A DNA stretch of 64,000 bases from a virus. The number at the start of each line of letters is the position of its first letter. The first letter of the stretch is position 1. The stretch covers positions 20,544 through 84,543 of the IMG/VR virus record IMGVR_UViG_3300018059_000011; one strand, written 5' to 3'. The translations under genes were made by a program, and so were the position numbers. The notes beneath the pieces are model-generated. The model saw only the letters and a program-made list of their open reading frames with translations. It was not told the origin of the DNA and did no database searches. Shown here one piece after another: positions 7,650 through 54,334 of the stretch.

Positions 7650-8248
7650 GTATCTGCCTTTATCTTCTCACCTTTGCGAATGGCAAACAGTATATTGGTG
7701 TGTCCAGTGAAATGGACCGTCGTCTCAAAGAGCACAGCTTTCGTGATACTTTGGTAGGAAGGGCCTGGAGAAAATATGGGGCTCCAGCGATCAAAATCTT
7801 GCTGATCGGTGAGGACGATTTCATCTACGAGATGGAAAGAAAAGCCGTTAGTTCTTACGGCACGCTTTTCCCCGATGGTCTCAATTTGATGGAAGGTGGC
7901 AAGGGCGGGCGTCGTATGTCTGGCGCCACAAGAACTAAGATGGCGGTTAGCCACATCGGGGCGATTATGCCGGTGGAAGTTCGGGCTAAAATCGGCGCCG
8001 CAAAGACTGGTCATAAACGCGAGCCATTCGGGCCGGATTGGTGTGCTAAATTGAGTGAGGCCGCGCGCAAAAGCTCTGGATTTTCTGGCCGCTCCCATAG
8101 CCCAGAAACTAGGGCCAAGATGGCGGCATCTCAATTGAGGCGCAAGGCGAGATCGTCTAAGCTAGGGTTGACAGTAGACCAGGAAGCCGAGTATCCTTAC
8201 AGGGAGAAAGCCGGGCTTCCAGGCCAAGGACAGGGACCGATACCATGA
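7646..8248 (+). CDS. GIY-YIG homing endonuclease fused to a displaced gene end
   Basis: A 200-aa protein from ATG 7646, which overlaps the previous TGA. The GIY-YIG domain is at residues 3-85 (LYLLTFANGKQYIGVSS, RRLKEH, RAWRKYG, EMERKAVSSYG), followed by NUMOD3-like repeats (SGATRTKMAVSHIG, SPETRAKMAASQLRRK). The last 26 residues are atypical: LTVDQEAEYPYRE aligns with the tail terminator's own end, RVDVTAEFDYAE, then a Gly/Pro tail reaches the ATGA overlap with the tube gene. This tail is probably not part of the nuclease but the original 3' end of the invaded gene. Confidence 0.85.
   Translation: MSICLYLLTFANGKQYIGVSSEMDRRLKEHSFRDTLVGRAWRKYGAPAIKILLIGEDDFIYEMERKAVSSYGTLFPDGLNLMEGGKGGRRMSGATRTKMAVSHIGAIMPVEVRAKIGAAKTGHKREPFGPDWCAKLSEAARKSSGFSGRSHSPETRAKMAASQLRRKARSSKLGLTVDQEAEYPYREKAGLPGQGQGPIP
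8168..8245 (+). pseudogene. Candidate displaced 3' end of the tail terminator gene
   Basis: In the same frame as the GIY-YIG gene, codons 8174-8206 encode VDQEAEYPYRE. The intact tail terminator ends VDVTAEFDYAE: 6 of 11 identical with one F/Y change, while the codons differ. The fragment then continues open to the ATGA shared with the tail tube start, where the original gene would have ended. Short, so moderate confidence; the same layout is seen much more clearly at the DNA polymerase gene. Confidence 0.45.
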
Positions 8249-10611
8249 CTGCATTGACGAAGATCGACTCCAACGGCACGGGCCTTCGGTTCTGCGAGGA
8301 AGTCTCGCTCGGTGTGCTTTCGGCAACCGCCTCTCAAGTCTGGTATCCGGCTGAGCCCAACACCTACGACAATTTCGGCGGCCAGTTCAAGAAGGTCGCT
8401 CGGCGCCCCATCAATGCGTCGCGCCAGAATCGCAAGGGCGTGACCGTCGATCTCGACGCGGCTGGTGGCTACAACACCGATCTCACGCAGACCAATCTCA
8501 TCCGGTTGCTTCAGGGCTTCTTGTTCGCGGACGCCCGCGAGCCCTACGACAGCCAGTCGATCAACAATCAGGGCAGCGCCCTTACCGCCGTTGAAGATAG
8601 CGACGACACCTATCGTTTCTCCTACGGCAATGATCTCGACCGCGTGCTGGGGCAGAGCCTCGTGTTCGCCACCGATCTGGCAACGACCGCGAACAACGGT
8701 TTGAACGTAGTCAACTCGGTGACTCGCGCGCTCGCCGCCGGTACGCTGACGCTGACGCCCGGCGCAATCGTCGATGACGTTGTGGTTATCGACGGCGTGT
8801 ACTATCAGTTTGACGCCACGGTCACTGCGGGCTCTGGCACCGGCTTCGACCCCTACGTTGTGGACATCGGCGCGAACGACACCGAAGCCTTTGCCAATCT
8901 CGTGAAGGCGATCAATGCGACCGGCACACCCGGCACGGAGTATAGCTCCGCGCTTGTGAGCGCGCATCCGACTGTCGAAGCCATTTCCAGCAATGCGACC
9001 ACGATGGTCGTGAACGCCCGTAGCTACGGATACGCGGGCAACAGCATCGAGACCAGCGGCACCGGCAATGACGGCCTCGCTTGGGGCGGCACCACGCTCT
9101 CCGGCGGCACCGCGATGATCGACGTTGACGCGAGCCTCACCGACGAGACTGTCGATGACGACCACGCGGGAGGCACCCTGACCTTCACCGCTGGCGCAAT
9201 CGCCGATGACATCGTTGAAATCGACGGCGTGTTTTATCAGTTCGCGGCGGACCCCACCACGGGCACGCCGGATGGCTCCGAAGGCGATCCGTTCCTCGTC
9301 GATGTCGGCGGCACCGATACGATCTCGCTCGCCAATCTTCGCAAGGCGATCAACGCCACGGGCATCGCCGGAACGACCTATGCGGCGGAAGTCGTTGTCC
9401 ATCCGACTGTGACTGCGGTTTCGTCCGGTGCGACCACGTTGGTTGTGCGCGCGAAGGCTGCGGGTACGGACGGCAATGCAATCACGACTTCAGTCACGCT
9501 CTCCAGCACCGATGACGGCCTCGCTTGGGGCAGCACCAAGCTCTCCGGCGGCAACAACACTTCGGCCCGTGTCCGCGTGGTCGGTTATCAGTTCGCATCC
9601 TCCACCGTCGATGTGGTCGTGTCTTTCACGCATCCGAGAATCTCCCGCGCTTCCGGCGCTGTCGATTTCACTACGTTCGGTCTGGTCCCAGGCCAATTCC
9701 TCTGGGTTGGCGGCGATGTCTCTGGCAAGAAGTGGGTCAACGAGAACATGAATGGCTGGGCTCGCGTTCGCGAGGTCGGCGCCGCCTACATCGAGTTCGA
9801 CAAGACCTCGGCGGATTGGGCCGCTGAAACCGGCACCAGCTTGACGGTTCAAATCTTCTTCGGCGTGGTCCTCAAGAACGAGTCCGATCCTACGCTCATC
9901 AAGCGCCGGTCCTATCACCTGGAGCGCTCTTTGGGCTCGCCGGATGACGCCGACCTGACCGCGATCCAGAGCGAGTTGCTCACGGGCTCGGTTCCGAACC
10001 AGATGACCCTGGACTTCAAGACCGCCGACAAAGTGACGGTGGACTTGTCGTTCCTTTCGACCGATGACGTGCAGCGCACGGCCACGGAGGGCTTGCTCTC
10101 CCAGGCTGCGGTTCACGGCGGCGGCGCCGCTCCGGGCATCGTCAACGAAGACGCCTACAATACGTCGAACGACTTTTCGCGGCTGAAGATGGTCATCCTC
10201 GACCCGTTGGATTCCAGCCCGTCTCCGCTGTTCGCGTTCTTGCAGGATTTCAAGATCACGATCAACAACAACCTGAAGGCCAACAAGGCGATCTCTGTCC
10301 TTGGCGCCTTCGAGGTCACCGCCGGTCAGTTCGTTGTGACCGGGACGACCACGGCGTACTTCGCCGACATTGCTGCAATCGCCGCCGTTCGCAACAACAG
10401 CGACGTGAGCATCGACTTTGCGCTTTCTCGTGACAACGTGGGCTTCGCGGTCGATGTGCCGCTGATCTCGCTGGGCGACGGACGCGCTGACGTGAAGCAG
10501 GACGAAGCCATCATGCTGCCGTTGTCCATCGACGCGGCTGCCGACCGGCTTTTCGACTATACGATCCTGTTCGAGTTCTTCCCTTACCTGCCGGACGTTG
10601 CCGCCGAGTAA
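8245..10611 (+). CDS. Major tail tube protein with two inserted modules
   Basis: A 788-aa protein of the Phage_tube_2-type tail tube family, whose members are usually about 300-400 aa. The N-terminus has LRFCEEVSLGVL, YDNFGGQF, VARRPINASRQNRKGVTVDLDAAGG and NTDLTQTNLIRLLQGFLFAD. The tube fold resumes after residue about 440 (FASSTVDVVV, FVWGGD-like LWVGGD, RRSYHLERSL) and ends FDYTILFEFFPYL. Residues about 164-287 and 308-435 are two tandem copies of the module found in other virion proteins (VVIDGVYYQF...NLVKAINATG...TTLSGG and VEIDGVFYQF...NLRKAINATG...TKLSGG). They probably project from the tube as surface decorations. Confidence 0.82.
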   Translation: MTALTKIDSNGTGLRFCEEVSLGVLSATASQVWYPAEPNTYDNFGGQFKKVARRPINASRQNRKGVTVDLDAAGGYNTDLTQTNLIRLLQGFLFADAREPYDSQSINNQGSALTAVEDSDDTYRFSYGNDLDRVLGQSLVFATDLATTANNGLNVVNSVTRALAAGTLTLTPGAIVDDVVVIDGVYYQFDATVTAGSGTGFDPYVVDIGANDTEAFANLVKAINATGTPGTEYSSALVSAHPTVEAISSNATTMVVNARSYGYAGNSIETSGTGNDGLAWGGTTLSGGTAMIDVDASLTDETVDDDHAGGTLTFTAGAIADDIVEIDGVFYQFAADPTTGTPDGSEGDPFLVDVGGTDTISLANLRKAINATGIAGTTYAAEVVVHPTVTAVSSGATTLVVRAKAAGTDGNAITTSVTLSSTDDGLAWGSTKLSGGNNTSARVRVVGYQFASSTVDVVVSFTHPRISRASGAVDFTTFGLVPGQFLWVGGDVSGKKWVNENMNGWARVREVGAAYIEFDKTSADWAAETGTSLTVQIFFGVVLKNESDPTLIKRRSYHLERSLGSPDDADLTAIQSELLTGSVPNQMTLDFKTADKVTVDLSFLSTDDVQRTATEGLLSQAAVHGGGAAPGIVNEDAYNTSNDFSRLKMVILDPLDSSPSPLFAFLQDFKITINNNLKANKAISVLGAFEVTAGQFVVTGTTTAYFADIAAIAAVRNNSDVSIDFALSRDNVGFAVDVPLISLGDGRADVKQDEAIMLPLSIDAAADRLFDYTILFEFFPYLPDVAAE

Positions 10612-49625: not shown

Positions 49626-49973
49626 TCATCCTCCCTGTTTGCGGGTAAGCCAAGCATGATCGCTTTCGTAATCGGGATGATCCCGAAATGCAGCTTCGAT
49701 GCCCGTCGCGAGTTCAAGCGAAGCGGTGTCGTCCTTATTCCGAAGCACCCGGCACCGCCGTTGTGCCGTCTTCATCGTGAAGTCGCCGCGATACTGCTCG
49801 GCGTTCGACTTGTCACAGAGCTTCGTGGCTCCGCGCTTGTTGACGCCAATGCCACCGACGATCTCGTCGTGTCTCCACGAACTTTTCCATTCGTCGCGGA
49901 CGTAATACGCGCGGCGCTCACCCCGATGCTGGAATGTGTGTAACCGGAATCTCGGGTAGTGCTGCTCCCTCAC
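49626..49973 (-). CDS. Hypothetical early protein
   Basis: A 115-aa basic protein from GTG 49973 (GTGA overlap). Contains YPRFRLHTFQHRGERRAYYV and a helical AWLTRKQ end. Function unknown. Confidence 0.55.
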   Translation of the reverse strand: MREQHYPRFRLHTFQHRGERRAYYVRDEWKSSWRHDEIVGGIGVNKRGATKLCDKSNAEQYRGDFTMKTAQRRCRVLRNKDDTASLELATGIEAAFRDHPDYESDHAWLTRKQGG

Positions 49974-50674
49974 GGGGTCACCGCCACGAGCCGGTCGAGT
50001 CCGATTGCCACTTCCAGCACCTTCATGCCGGGGTAGTCGTTGCGAAGCGAGATCGACGCCATCTCCCGCCAGTCCACGCCGTTACCGCTGGCGTCGAGGT
50101 TCACTTCAATGTCCCGCGTCTCCTCGGAGTAGGAGGGCAGGCGGTCGCTGTGGACGACGCGCGTCTCTGCATTCGTGATCGCGGCGATTTCGCGACGCAC
50201 GGATTCGACGACCGGCGCCGAATAGTCCGCCATCGTGTTGAGGCCGTAGACGCACTGGAACTCCAATTGGTAGAACTCGAAGAAGCGAAGTTTGGCGGCA
50301 TTCGCGCCCTCGGACGATTCCCGGCGGAAGCTCTTGCCCGCCTGATAAACGCAGACCGGCGGCTTGGTCCCGTGAGCGAGCAAGTAGCCCGCATAGAGAT
50401 AAGAGGAGGCCGTGGTCTCGGCTCGGAGGCTCACGCCTTCGCCGCCGAAGCTGCCTGATGTTGCCCACAGGTCGCTGTCACCGTACTCCGGCGAGATGCG
50501 AGACTGCGGCGTCAGCAGCGGACCATCGACCCGATGAAAGGACCATGCGCGATTGAGTTCGACCAGGGGCTCACGCACGGCAAAGACGAGGCGTGGGATG
50601 AATCCCTCGCGCAACGCGATCTCGCGCTCAGTCCAGAAGCGAAGCTGGCCGGTGTTGTAGAGCGCGTGGCTCAC
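49970..50674 (-). CDS. Class II aminoacyl-tRNA synthetase catalytic core, GlyRS-like
   Basis: A 234-aa protein from GTG 50674. Motif 2 and its partner strand are recognisable: SLRAETTASSYLYAG, then YQAGKSFRRES (the GKSFRxE of GlyRS-type enzymes) and RFFEFYQLEFQ. Motif 3 is VAIGLDRLVAV near the C-terminus. No anticodon-binding domain is present, and the length is about half of a normal GlyRS. It may charge a non-tRNA substrate, act like aaRS paralogs in amino-acid transfer, or be a decoy. Identification is by motif reading only. Confidence 0.72.
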   Translation of the reverse strand: MSHALYNTGQLRFWTEREIALREGFIPRLVFAVREPLVELNRAWSFHRVDGPLLTPQSRISPEYGDSDLWATSGSFGGEGVSLRAETTASSYLYAGYLLAHGTKPPVCVYQAGKSFRRESSEGANAAKLRFFEFYQLEFQCVYGLNTMADYSAPVVESVRREIAAITNAETRVVHSDRLPSYSEETRDIEVNLDASGNGVDWREMASISLRNDYPGMKVLEVAIGLDRLVAVTP

Positions 50675-50907
50675 GGCTTTGCCTTTGGCTTGAGGAACAG
50701 CGCTTCGAGTTGATCGAGATTGTTGAGAATGATCCTGATCGTCCCCTTCGCGATCTTCGAGTTGTCGTGCAGCAACGTAACGATGACCTCGCGTTTCAGC
50801 CGCGAAGCACTCAGCTTGTGCATGGCCGATGCCAAATCGACGATAGCCGTCTCCAAGACTTCGGTCGGCAACGGGACATCGCCGGGTTTCACTTTGATCT
50901 GGCTCAT
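50671..50907 (-). CDS. Hypothetical early protein
   Basis: A 78-aa helical basic protein (TAIVDLASAMHKLSASRLKRE, then RIILNNLDQLEALFL). The size and charge are compatible with a small DNA- or RNA-binding protein. Function unknown. Confidence 0.55.
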   Translation of the reverse strand: MSQIKVKPGDVPLPTEVLETAIVDLASAMHKLSASRLKREVIVTLLHDNSKIAKGTIRIILNNLDQLEALFLKPKAKP

Positions 50908-51661: not shown

Positions 51662-52291
51662 CTATTTAATGAACCACGTCTTGATAGCATTCGACGTGAT
51701 CGAGATCACTTCATCGGACGTAGCCTCGCGGGGCTCGGCGCTTACCCAGGCCGGACCCTGCCAAAACACGCGAGCGTGCTCGGTGTCGGGATTGAATGTC
51801 CGGTCGATGAGAGTCACGGTCCCGTCTTCCGGCGCGCTCATGTGAATCTCGTTGGCCGCCTGCCGATACCAGTCACCGGCTTCGTAGAGTTCAACTGGAT
51901 GCTCGAACAGGCGCACGGGCACGGGATCGGACTTCACGCATCCGCCGGGGCCACATTGAATCGTCTGCTCGTTATAAATGTCTGAAGATTGCCCCAGCGT
52001 GATACCGCTATCGACTTCCTTGGTGTACCGGATGTTGCGAAGCCGACCGGCGATAATCAGTGACGAAAAGTCCCACGGGTGATCGTGATGCAGCGACACC
52101 TTCGGCACCCCATAGCGACTGTCCCACACATGCAGCCGCAGGGCCTTGTCGGGCATGTACAGCCGCAGCATCCCGAAACCTTGCAATGACCATTGCTGGC
52201 CGGAGCCGAGCGGCGCCCTGAGAACGCGCTCGACCAGGGAATGGATCATCTTGAACTCGGATTCGCTGCTACTGCCGTGAGTGTAAGTCAT
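51662..52291 (-). CDS. Cupin-like protein (209 aa)
   Basis: A 209-aa protein. The segment VSLHHDHPWDFSSLIIAGRLRNIRY is cupin-like (H-x-H-P followed by a G after about 12 residues), and a later NEIHMSAPEDGTVTLIDR supplies the second cupin motif His. A small-molecule oxygenase or binding role is possible; the substrate is unknown. Confidence 0.6.
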   Translation of the reverse strand: MTYTHGSSSESEFKMIHSLVERVLRAPLGSGQQWSLQGFGMLRLYMPDKALRLHVWDSRYGVPKVSLHHDHPWDFSSLIIAGRLRNIRYTKEVDSGITLGQSSDIYNEQTIQCGPGGCVKSDPVPVRLFEHPVELYEAGDWYRQAANEIHMSAPEDGTVTLIDRTFNPDTEHARVFWQGPAWVSAEPREATSDEVISITSNAIKTWFIK

Positions 52292-52692
52292 CGTTTCACC
52301 TTCACTACCTTTATGTGCGCGGCTTCTGCTCGCCGGATCATGTCGTCAGTTCCGGTCCCGCCTGGGAATGCCGCAACTACATCGGGGGCACCGACATCGA
52401 CCATCTTCTGGTTCCGGCGGAAACCGGCGCGAGCATCATACTTCTTGCCGTCCGCTCGGGTTCGGATCAAGGCGTCAGCGTGCGTGAGATCGTCCCATGC
52501 CGCCGGGTACGCCTCGAATGGAATGCCCCTGGACTTCGCCCACTCCCGACCGAGGGTGTCGGCGCCGGGCGCTTCACCTTCGATGATGACGCCAATGGGG
52601 TTGGCCGCGTGTGCGAGATCGAGGACACGAAAGACGCGGGCTTCATCGTTGTAGTCGCGACCGCCACAGACCAAGACCCGCCGTCCGCTCAT
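52288..52692 (-). CDS. SLOG-family protein (DUF2493-like)
   Basis: A 134-aa protein with all main marks of the family: RRVLVCGGRDYNDEARVF, VIIEGEAPGADTLGREWAKSRGI, YPAAW, RRNQKMVD and FPGGTGTDDMIRRA. SLOG proteins bind nucleotide-derived ligands through the GG-x-x-Y and PGGTGT loops. In phages they may sense or hydrolyse such ligands. Confidence 0.85.
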   Translation of the reverse strand: MSGRRVLVCGGRDYNDEARVFRVLDLAHAANPIGVIIEGEAPGADTLGREWAKSRGIPFEAYPAAWDDLTHADALIRTRADGKKYDARAGFRRNQKMVDVGAPDVVAAFPGGTGTDDMIRRAEAAHIKVVKVKR

Positions 52693-53248: not shown

Positions 53249-53331
53249 GAGAAGAACCTGATCTTGATCGCGGCGGCAACAACCGCCACGACGATGATAC
53301 CGCCGAACACGACGGGAAGCATTTGGTCCAT
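53245..53331 (-). CDS. Membrane microprotein (28 aa)
   Basis: ATG 53331 overlaps the TGA of the upstream gene and its own TGA overlaps the next ATG. Nearly the entire product is one membrane segment (VVFGGIIVVAVVAAAIKI) with a short basic end. Support is the double ATGA coupling. Confidence 0.5.
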   Translation of the reverse strand: MDQMLPVVFGGIIVVAVVAAAIKIRFFS

Positions 53332-54158
53332 CAGCTTTCCTCCACTTGCTTCTTGCGGAAGTCGAAACCCCGCTGCCAGTAGTTGACAGCGGCGACTTCG
53401 GTGTATGGGGCCTTCGGCGGGGTCCGCCCGTCTTTGGCCCCGGCCCAGCGGTCATATGCCGCCGATCCTTCACGTTTCCAGACCGCGTGCTTCTTCAGCG
53501 TCGCCGACATCTCGTCAAGCGCCGCCGCCAGCATGTCGTCATGCGCGGGCCTATCGTCGATCAGCACCCCACGGTGCTCAGCGTCCAAGAGAATGGCGTT
53601 GCACGCAATCGCATGGCCCAAGTGGTGAACCTCGGAGTCAGGAGCGAGCCGCTGGCCTTCCCACCAATCGAGGACATGGCGAATGGACGCGGCCACATAG
53701 ATCGACGCGATCACGGGCTTGTCCCGCCAATTGTACGGGCCGTACTTGTCGGCGCCGTCCATCATCGCCATCGCCCCCCAGGCGTAGCCGATGGCCGGGA
53801 ACTTGGAGAAGTCCACTTTGACGGCCCCGAACAGGTCTTTGGGGTTGGCTGTGGTCGCCTTGGACTTGGCACCGGCCACAGGCGCGTTATCGCCGGTCTT
53901 GGCGGCCTCGGCGGCTGCGAACACCCTGGCAATGGCGACGGCATCGTCGGGCTTCACGGCTGTCCCGAGAGGCGTGGCCCGGCCTACCACGAGCGGGCGC
54001 TCGGGATGGGTAGCACCATCACCCGGCTGGGCTGTCACCACGTCGATGCCCTTAGCCGGACGGGGCTGGATCATCTGTCGGCGGGTCTCACCGCTGGAAT
54101 CGAGTGGCGGAAGATCGGAACCGTCCTGGGCTCCACCAAATTCGTTGATCCCGGTCAT
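53331..54158 (-). CDS. dATP/dGTP diphosphohydrolase-like protein
   Basis: A 275-aa protein from ATG 54158 (GAGG 6 nt upstream). A low-complexity N-terminal part is followed by the dGTP_diPhyd-type domain at about 135-205: GADKYGPYNWRDKP, SIRHVLDWWEGQRLAPDSEVHHLGHAIACNAILLDAE. The acidic/His residues fit an all-α pyrophosphatase metal site. Such enzymes remove dGTP or dATP from the pool, and relatives act in phage 2-aminoadenine pathways; no PurZ homolog is visible here. Confidence 0.72.
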   Translation of the reverse strand: MTGINEFGGAQDGSDLPPLDSSGETRRQMIQPRPAKGIDVVTAQPGDGATHPERPLVVGRATPLGTAVKPDDAVAIARVFAAAEAAKTGDNAPVAGAKSKATTANPKDLFGAVKVDFSKFPAIGYAWGAMAMMDGADKYGPYNWRDKPVIASIYVAASIRHVLDWWEGQRLAPDSEVHHLGHAIACNAILLDAEHRGVLIDDRPAHDDMLAAALDEMSATLKKHAVWKREGSAAYDRWAGAKDGRTPPKAPYTEVAAVNYWQRGFDFRKKQVEES

Positions 54159-54166
54159 CGTCATCC

Positions 54167-54334
54167 TCAATCGGCTTCGGTCTTGGGCGCGTCCCCGCCC
54201 CGGTAACGACTGCGCGATTGCCGGAGCCGGGACGGCTCCAACCGGATTTCGCGCGCAAGCTGGTGGGCCTCGATACGATTGCGAGGCACGGCGTAGGTGC
54301 CGGGTTGCCGTACCGAGGTATCTGGCGTCGCCAT
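54167..54334 (-). CDS. Hypothetical small basic protein (55 aa)
   Basis: ATG 54334 overlaps the upstream TGA. Arg-rich (AREIRLEPSRLRQSRSRYRGG), likely to bind nucleic acid by charge. Function unknown. Confidence 0.5.
   Translation of the reverse strand: MATPDTSVRQPGTYAVPRNRIEAHQLAREIRLEPSRLRQSRSRYRGGDAPKTEAD

Follow-up and report, generated by a model that had tools for sequence, protein, structure and literature searches.

The gene and its protein

The window, a 64,000-nucleotide stretch that forms a portion of an 84.5-kb virus record, encodes on its minus strand a 234-aa GlyRS-type class II synthetase core (mini-GlyRS; positions 49970–50674), identified by profile matches, an AF2 model and structural alignment. 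The gene reads from a GTG start at 50674 to a stop codon at 49970–49972, and this start is supported by the relatives of the protein, whose ATG starts fall at the same aligned position. Directly upstream on the same strand lies a 78-aa ORF (50671–50907) that overlaps the mini-GlyRS start by 4 nt, and directly downstream a 115-aa ORF (49626–49973) whose GTG start overlaps the mini-GlyRS stop. Because of these overlaps of a few bases on both sides, mini-GlyRS and both flanking ORFs probably share one transcript. Neither flanking ORF belongs to a known family in Pfam/PHROGs-type family scans, and the location among small genes given by the original prediction is correct. Ten window neighbours were scanned, and the recognizable ones were a YspA/SLOG protein, a dATP/dGTP diphosphohydrolase and one resembling a phage family of no known function. 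The YspA/SLOG-family protein (52288–52692; PF10686, E = 3e-20) has relatives near the family gene in four other loci (L001, L019, L058 and L068). The dATP/dGTP diphosphohydrolase N-terminal domain (PF18909, E = 1e-21) is encoded at 53331–54170, in a protein whose PHROGs grouping is 'endolysin; inhibits RNA polymerase'. The window has one tRNA in all, 15.7 kb from mini-GlyRS.

Taken alone, the window protein matched the GlyRS model NF003211 with E = 6.5e-9 and 35.2 bits, short of the curated cut-off of 312; the best match in a Pfam scan was not significant (E = 0.14), and a PHROGs scan gave zero matches. The wider family was captured in an alignment of 74 rows (A2), comprising the window and 73 loci. 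It was built from 66 representatives at less than 75% identity, minus the window, which was re-entered as row 1, with 15 loci added and seven others removed, six of them belonging to annotated phage records and the seventh being partial; a locus with an alternative code (L082) and two broken or partial ones (L103 and L158) were kept outside it. All 74 aligned relatives matched NF003211 at E ≤ 0.01, and comparison of the A2 profile with class II synthetases gave GlyRS chains as the best match (E = 2.5e-16), followed by SerRS (1.9e-6) and PylRS (1.3e-5). The AF2 model of the protein (pLDDT 95.2, pTM 0.91) retrieved Mtb GlyRS as the top Foldseek match (E = 7.5e-15). The class II structural match was likewise found with VIA-align, in which dimeric GlyRS scored best (Mtb GlyRS 8u2p; Z 22.0, rmsd 3.0, 224 residues aligned), ahead of ProRS (Z 20.5) and glycine:[carrier protein] ligase 4h2s (Z 19.8, rmsd 3.0 over 209 residues). 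Since Z values so close separate families poorly, we weighted sequence over structure in assigning kinship to GlyRS. The profile and structure matches to GlyRS are not a product of chance.

The alignment and the AF2 model place motifs 1, 2 and 3 on a class II antiparallel sheet. Residues 45–56 (50507–50542), which we take to be class II motif 1, include a strand ending at P56, a proline in 69 of 74 relatives. Motif 2 spans residues 116–140 (FRRE...FFEFYQLEFQ; 50255–50329) and motif 3 residues 221–228 (EVAIGLDR; 49991–50014), both on the minus strand and both where a 234-aa ORF carrying these two motifs had been predicted. Equivalences to Mtb GlyRS were read from the profile alignment, in which the chain index minus 13 gives the numbering of PMC12208437, where residues around glycyl-AMS or AMP are named. 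In motif 2, R117, E119, F134, Q136 and E138 correspond to Mtb Arg197, Glu199, Phe212, Gln214 and Glu216, and in motif 3, E221, A223 and R228 correspond to Glu324, Ala326 and Arg331. Three further segments of the minus strand complete the site. The RAETT loop (residues 84–88; 50411–50425) supplies E86, the counterpart of Glu165, which is described as contacting the glycine amino group; the lid SDRLPSYSEE (residues 176–185; 50120–50149) supplies Y182, the counterpart of Tyr264 in the [AS]HY[AS] lid; and the segment EMASISLRND (residues 204–213; 50036–50065) supplies E204 and R211, the counterparts of Arg291 and, for E204, of Glu284, to which a ribose/metal role is ascribed (PMC12208437). R117, E119, F134, Q136, E138, Y182, E204, E221 and R228 are identical in all 74 rows of A2, which has 22 invariant columns, and E86 and A223 are conserved in 73. 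Equivalents of the residues named for glycyl-adenylate in dimeric GlyRS (Mtb Glu165, Arg197, Gln214, Glu216, Glu324, Ala326 and Arg331) are thereby present. Because these residues are nearly all kept in 73 to 74 of 74 relatives, the family likely adenylates glycine, as judged from the aligned active sites. The position of Mtb Thr209 is not conserved in the family. We considered A223, which aligns with human GlyRS Ser524, as a switch of specificity to another amino acid and dropped the idea, since Mtb GlyRS has alanine there.

Dimeric (α2) GlyRS (Mtb 8t5n/8u2p, Thermus 1b76, Nanoarchaeum 5z5e) thus shares with mini-GlyRS the class II core, the ATP residues, the lid tyrosine, the three-glutamate glycine pit and the equivalents of Gln214 and Ala326, but identity is about 20% and the chains are 442–534 aa long as against 234. 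The anticodon-binding and insertion domains are both missing from mini-GlyRS. Its C terminus aligns with Mtb residue 335, just past motif 3 and before the anticodon domain; the C-terminal HGTP anticodon-binding domain is absent, with no anticodon-domain match in the Pfam scan of the window protein. Nearly all insertions of the GlyRS catalytic domain are missing as well, since residues 1–234 of the model cover Mtb 17–335 and human 79–535, and the insertion domain with its zinc knuckle is not present in a protein that has 2 cysteines in total. A further difference is the equivalent of Mtb Glu218, a buried residue described as orienting Glu324 (PMC12208437), which is glutamine (Gln140) in all 74 rows. 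Sequence profiles, structure and residue conservation together bear out the original prediction of a GlyRS-like core without an anticodon domain.

Distribution in large phages and in bacteria

The prediction had pointed to other phages as a place to look for this gene, and it was found there, in 19 phage records and in IMG/VR loci. A tblastn search of 50,697 phage records recovered the family in 19, every one larger than 300 kb, and two other family members used as queries returned the identical set. The carriers are Caulobacter phages, including Bertelyvirus, Brevundimonas phages, Sinorhizobium phage Phosso, Xanthomonas phage XbC2 and two uncultured phages of about 635 kb each. IMG/VR yielded 99 confirmed stretches, of which 80 were kept. 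Annotations in public records range over hypothetical protein, aminoacyl-tRNA synthetase, serine-tRNA synthetase and RNA synthetase class II. Across phage and bacterial pairs, dN/dS was 0.05–0.31 in the 17 usable pairs of 20 tried, and the family is under strong purifying selection in both settings. One viral locus, L082 (IMGVR_UViG_3300021964_000180, 7995–8678), holds a family member interrupted by TGA under the standard code; TGA falls where relatives have glycine, and CGA occupies two conserved tryptophan columns. Because this usage matches the code with UGA as Gly and CGA as Trp reported for Absconditabacteria (PMC8629427), L082 is probably an Absconditabacteria phage that carries the glycine enzyme.

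GTDB genomes contributed 70 loci, chiefly from Rhizobium, Devosia and Phenylobacterium. A maximum-likelihood tree was built from 101 rows, after short, near-identical and most Rhizobium rows had been dropped. In it, the Rhizobiales and Phenylobacterium copies form one clade (100/94) nested within phage sequences; its sisters are the phage loci L064 and L070 (100/99). Because the bacterial clade nests among phage sequences, the tree suggests that the alphaproteobacterial copies were captured from phage, a direction read from a midpoint root. Three GTDB loci (L090, L155 and L156) branch elsewhere among the phages; these are possibly phage contigs that ended up in metagenome bins. With seed genomes included among the positives, the gene is present in 72 of 148 Rhizobium-genus species, three of which carry an in-frame stop, in 3 of 297 genomes sampled from Rhizobium's order and in 5 of 199 Caulobacteraceae. 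Rhizobium copies with in-frame stops are L103 (7992–8741; TAG at codon 103), G519, G511 and G527, and the gene is therefore being lost in a few strains. A plasmid search returned 3 records, with one complete copy, on a Devosia plasmid, annotated as aminoacyl--tRNA ligase-related protein. In 24 loci the gene lies between an SGNH-type gene and gltD, as named from sequence reading. No tRNA was detected in the stretch around the gene in any of 16 bacterial-genome loci scanned, and a normal glyQ is present in all seven bacterial carrier genomes checked. Purifying selection together with an ordinary glyQ in the same hosts argues that this is an extra, selected gene and not a replacement GlyRS.

tRNA genes around the phage copies

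We compared the distance from the gene to the nearest tRNA match with random placements in eight carrier genomes, each with 25–68 tRNA matches; ten had been examined, and the two omitted were near-duplicates of Caulobacter and Brevundimonas genomes. In six of the eight the gene lies 0–335 bp from a tRNA match (random-placement fractions 0.001–0.033), whereas the nearest tRNA is 17 kb away in Caulobacter C1 (fraction 0.37) and 65 kb away in Brevundimonas Domovoi (0.89). Combined by Fisher's method over all eight genomes the value is 5.6e-8, which is indicative given the shared ancestry of the genomes and the weak match in W08, where the adjacent tRNA is a 31-bit match that ARAGORN does not call. 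On this indicative figure the gene lies closer to a tRNA than chance predicts in the six genomes; in the window and in the Caulobacter and Brevundimonas phages it does not lie close to one. A tRNA occurs in the examined stretch in 29 of 58 viral representatives, in 18 of them within 600 bp, and no isotype dominates among the nearest tRNAs. A dedicated tRNA-Gly partner was considered and rejected: a tRNA-Gly is the closest one in 2 of the 29 loci, and Gly accounts for 27 of 226 tRNAs in the stretches, with no enrichment. In L007 and L008 (16.7-kb stretches), tRNA arrays adjoin the gene and consist solely of tRNAs for GNN codons (Gly, Ala, Val, Asp and Glu) plus Cys; the pattern holds for 14 of 14 tRNAs in L007, 15 of 15 in L008 and 16 of 16 in L063.

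The neighbours of the gene in the Phosso group include CysRS, an RNA ligase and peptidyl-tRNA hydrolase. A tRNA with a CUA anticodon lies 0.05–1.9 kb upstream in nine of ten loci of this clade, the stretch of L072 having none; overall, a CUA tRNA occurs in 7 of 58 viral representatives. These CUA tRNAs, which may resemble tRNA-Asn, carry G73 in nine of nine cases; seven of them have G1:C72 and the other two C1:G72. We set the suppressor-like Phosso tRNA aside as a cognate partner, keeping it solely within the composite history considered below, since G73 with a variable 1:72 pair offers no glycine identity and such a tRNA is lacking in the stretches of most carriers. Another Sinorhizobium jumbo phage has already been reported to carry a CUA tRNA (PMC11242549).

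Candidate acceptors and related enzymes

Our leading explanation is that mini-GlyRS would be a minimal class IIa GlyRS of the dimeric α2 type that retains catalysis. With ATP and glycine bound in an acidic pit like that of GlyRS, it would form glycyl-adenylate and then load the amino acid onto the 3′ terminus of a tRNA or a similar RNA. Lacking an anticodon-binding domain, it would recognize this RNA through the acceptor end alone. The phage would gain extra glycylation capacity, or a specificity unlike that of the host (αβ)2 GlyRS, inside its translation module. We put the probability that the enzyme charges tRNA or tRNA-like RNA in this way at roughly 40%, and the identity of the acceptor as a tRNA, and as which tRNA, is the part with the least support. 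Acceptor-end charging nevertheless stands somewhat ahead of other acceptors, as an RNA is favoured by the tRNA and translation genes close by, and another acceptor by the stripping away of all additional domains and by bacterial copies that stand alone. Against a tRNA count the long distance to the nearest tRNA in the window and in the Caulobacter and Brevundimonas phages, the changing isotype of the neighbouring tRNA, the tRNA-free stretches of the 16 bacterial-genome loci, the weak match in W08 and Gln140 in place of Glu218. In addition, tRNA arrays may simply draw in translation genes, and an anticodon-blind synthetase could be harmful in a Rhizobium cell.

The strongest competing explanation, itself doubtful, is that glycyl-adenylate is made and the glycine passed to something other than tRNA, such as a protein, a nucleotide, a metabolite or the thiol of a carrier protein. 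Precedent comes from synthetase paralogues such as EpmA and the amino acid:carrier protein ligases, and mini-GlyRS resembles these ligases in having neither an anticodon domain nor the GlyRS insertions. The rhizobial glycine:[carrier protein] ligase Bll0957 (3mf2, 4h2s), from Bradyrhizobium, is structurally near and is likewise a stand-alone, glycine-using class II core without an anticodon domain. The solitary gene on alphaproteobacterial chromosomes, with its tRNA-free surroundings and normal glyQ, fits a non-tRNA acceptor, as does the predicted pI of 5.0–6.6 in the ten proteins computed. Against it, Bll0957 as crystallized is about 60 residues longer and unmatched by sequence, its chains being missing from the A2 matches at E ≤ 0.01, a result that leaves room for distant kinship. 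Moreover, the recurrent-neighbour search found no constant partner gene, a crude motif scan of the 4 kb around the representatives gave four unconvincing candidates for a short carrier protein, no carrier-protein gene was seen beside the phage or bacterial copies, and tRNA genes lie near the family gene in many phages.

An ordinary accessory GlyRS that raises Gly-tRNAGly during infection, with no new specificity, is unlikely. It would account for the tRNA-Gly genes that lie 15–19 bp upstream of the family gene in L006, L008 and L063, of which those in L006 and L008 have U73, the discriminator read by bacterial GlyRS. It is also in keeping with huge phages, some of which are described as having as many as 15 synthetases, and with their sizeable collections of tRNAs (PMC7162821). 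However, the domain that reads the glycine anticodon is missing together with nearly all insertions, and the isotype of the neighbouring tRNA varies. The loss of the anticodon domain is common to the whole family and is therefore not a recent truncation, which further argues against a simple translation helper. Likewise unlikely is a composite history, in which an anticodon-blind glycine ligase of jumbo phages charges one or more phage tRNAs unserved by host GlyRS and was later captured by Alphaproteobacteria for a function of their own. Such a ligase would place glycine at positions or on tRNAs beyond the reach of the host enzyme, and in one clade its substrate may be the neighbouring amber-suppressor tRNA.

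Synthetase cores have become regulators elsewhere, as in HisZ and POLG2, and mini-GlyRS could be a decoy or binding subunit of that kind; this is improbable given ATP and glycine residues that are invariant or almost so in 74 relatives under strong purifying selection. HisZ-like, POLG2-like and EpmA-like readings were accordingly disfavoured, by the conserved active-site residues or by score. Least probable of all is a role in counter-defence or defence, the original prediction having raised antidefence or modification: NAD-salvage genes lie close by in several carrier phages, but PADLOC models matched none of four family members scanned, the recurrent-neighbour search returned no constant defence-related gene, and the context in other phages is one of tRNA and translation genes, so that no positive evidence emerged.

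Other synthetase cores are also among the closest known comparisons. EpmA, the EF-P lysine ligase and another core known without an anticodon domain, and HisZ are class II paralogues that do not charge tRNA; for the window protein their scores are far weaker (EpmA models NF006828, E = 0.003, and TIGR00462, E = 0.067), and HisZ is not among the matches listed. The catalytic part of PylRS is likewise a compact class II core and works without reading an anticodon. It resembles mini-GlyRS in its weak A2 profile match and in the CUA tRNA near the gene in one phage clade, but the family has a glycine pit and is closer to GlyRS, and the CUA tRNAs are suppressor-like with G73. CysRS*, a class I enzyme, is also a synthetase without an anticodon-binding domain, differing in its use of cysteine and in its tRNA partner, since mini-GlyRS is not known to have a dedicated tRNA. 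It is reported to charge a dedicated SelC* tRNA (Mukai et al., via PMC9437257), and the same source lists amino acid:carrier protein ligases and GluQ-RS alongside CysRS* as cores shorn of the anticodon domain.

The mini-GlyRS phage family is apparently undescribed: our literature search found no paper naming it and no stand-alone phage core of the α2-GlyRS type, and the text of the jumbo-phage overview PMC7824862 does not mention 'class II'. If active, mini-GlyRS would rank with the smallest enzymes in nature that activate glycine, near the minimal class II core in models of synthetase origins, with a possible use for in vitro glycine transfer. It is also a phage-encoded synthetase derivative that soil bacteria retain under selection alongside their ordinary GlyRS, and its acceptor can therefore be sought genetically in tractable Rhizobium. 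Four other phage proteins in BFVD (A0A292GIB7, A0A2I7SAH4, A0A141HRQ2 and K7QJG2, the last from Escherichia phage phAPEC8) match the class II fold with E values of 7e-9 to 5e-6; at 185–217 aa and 14–16% identity, they possibly represent further small synthetase-like phage families.
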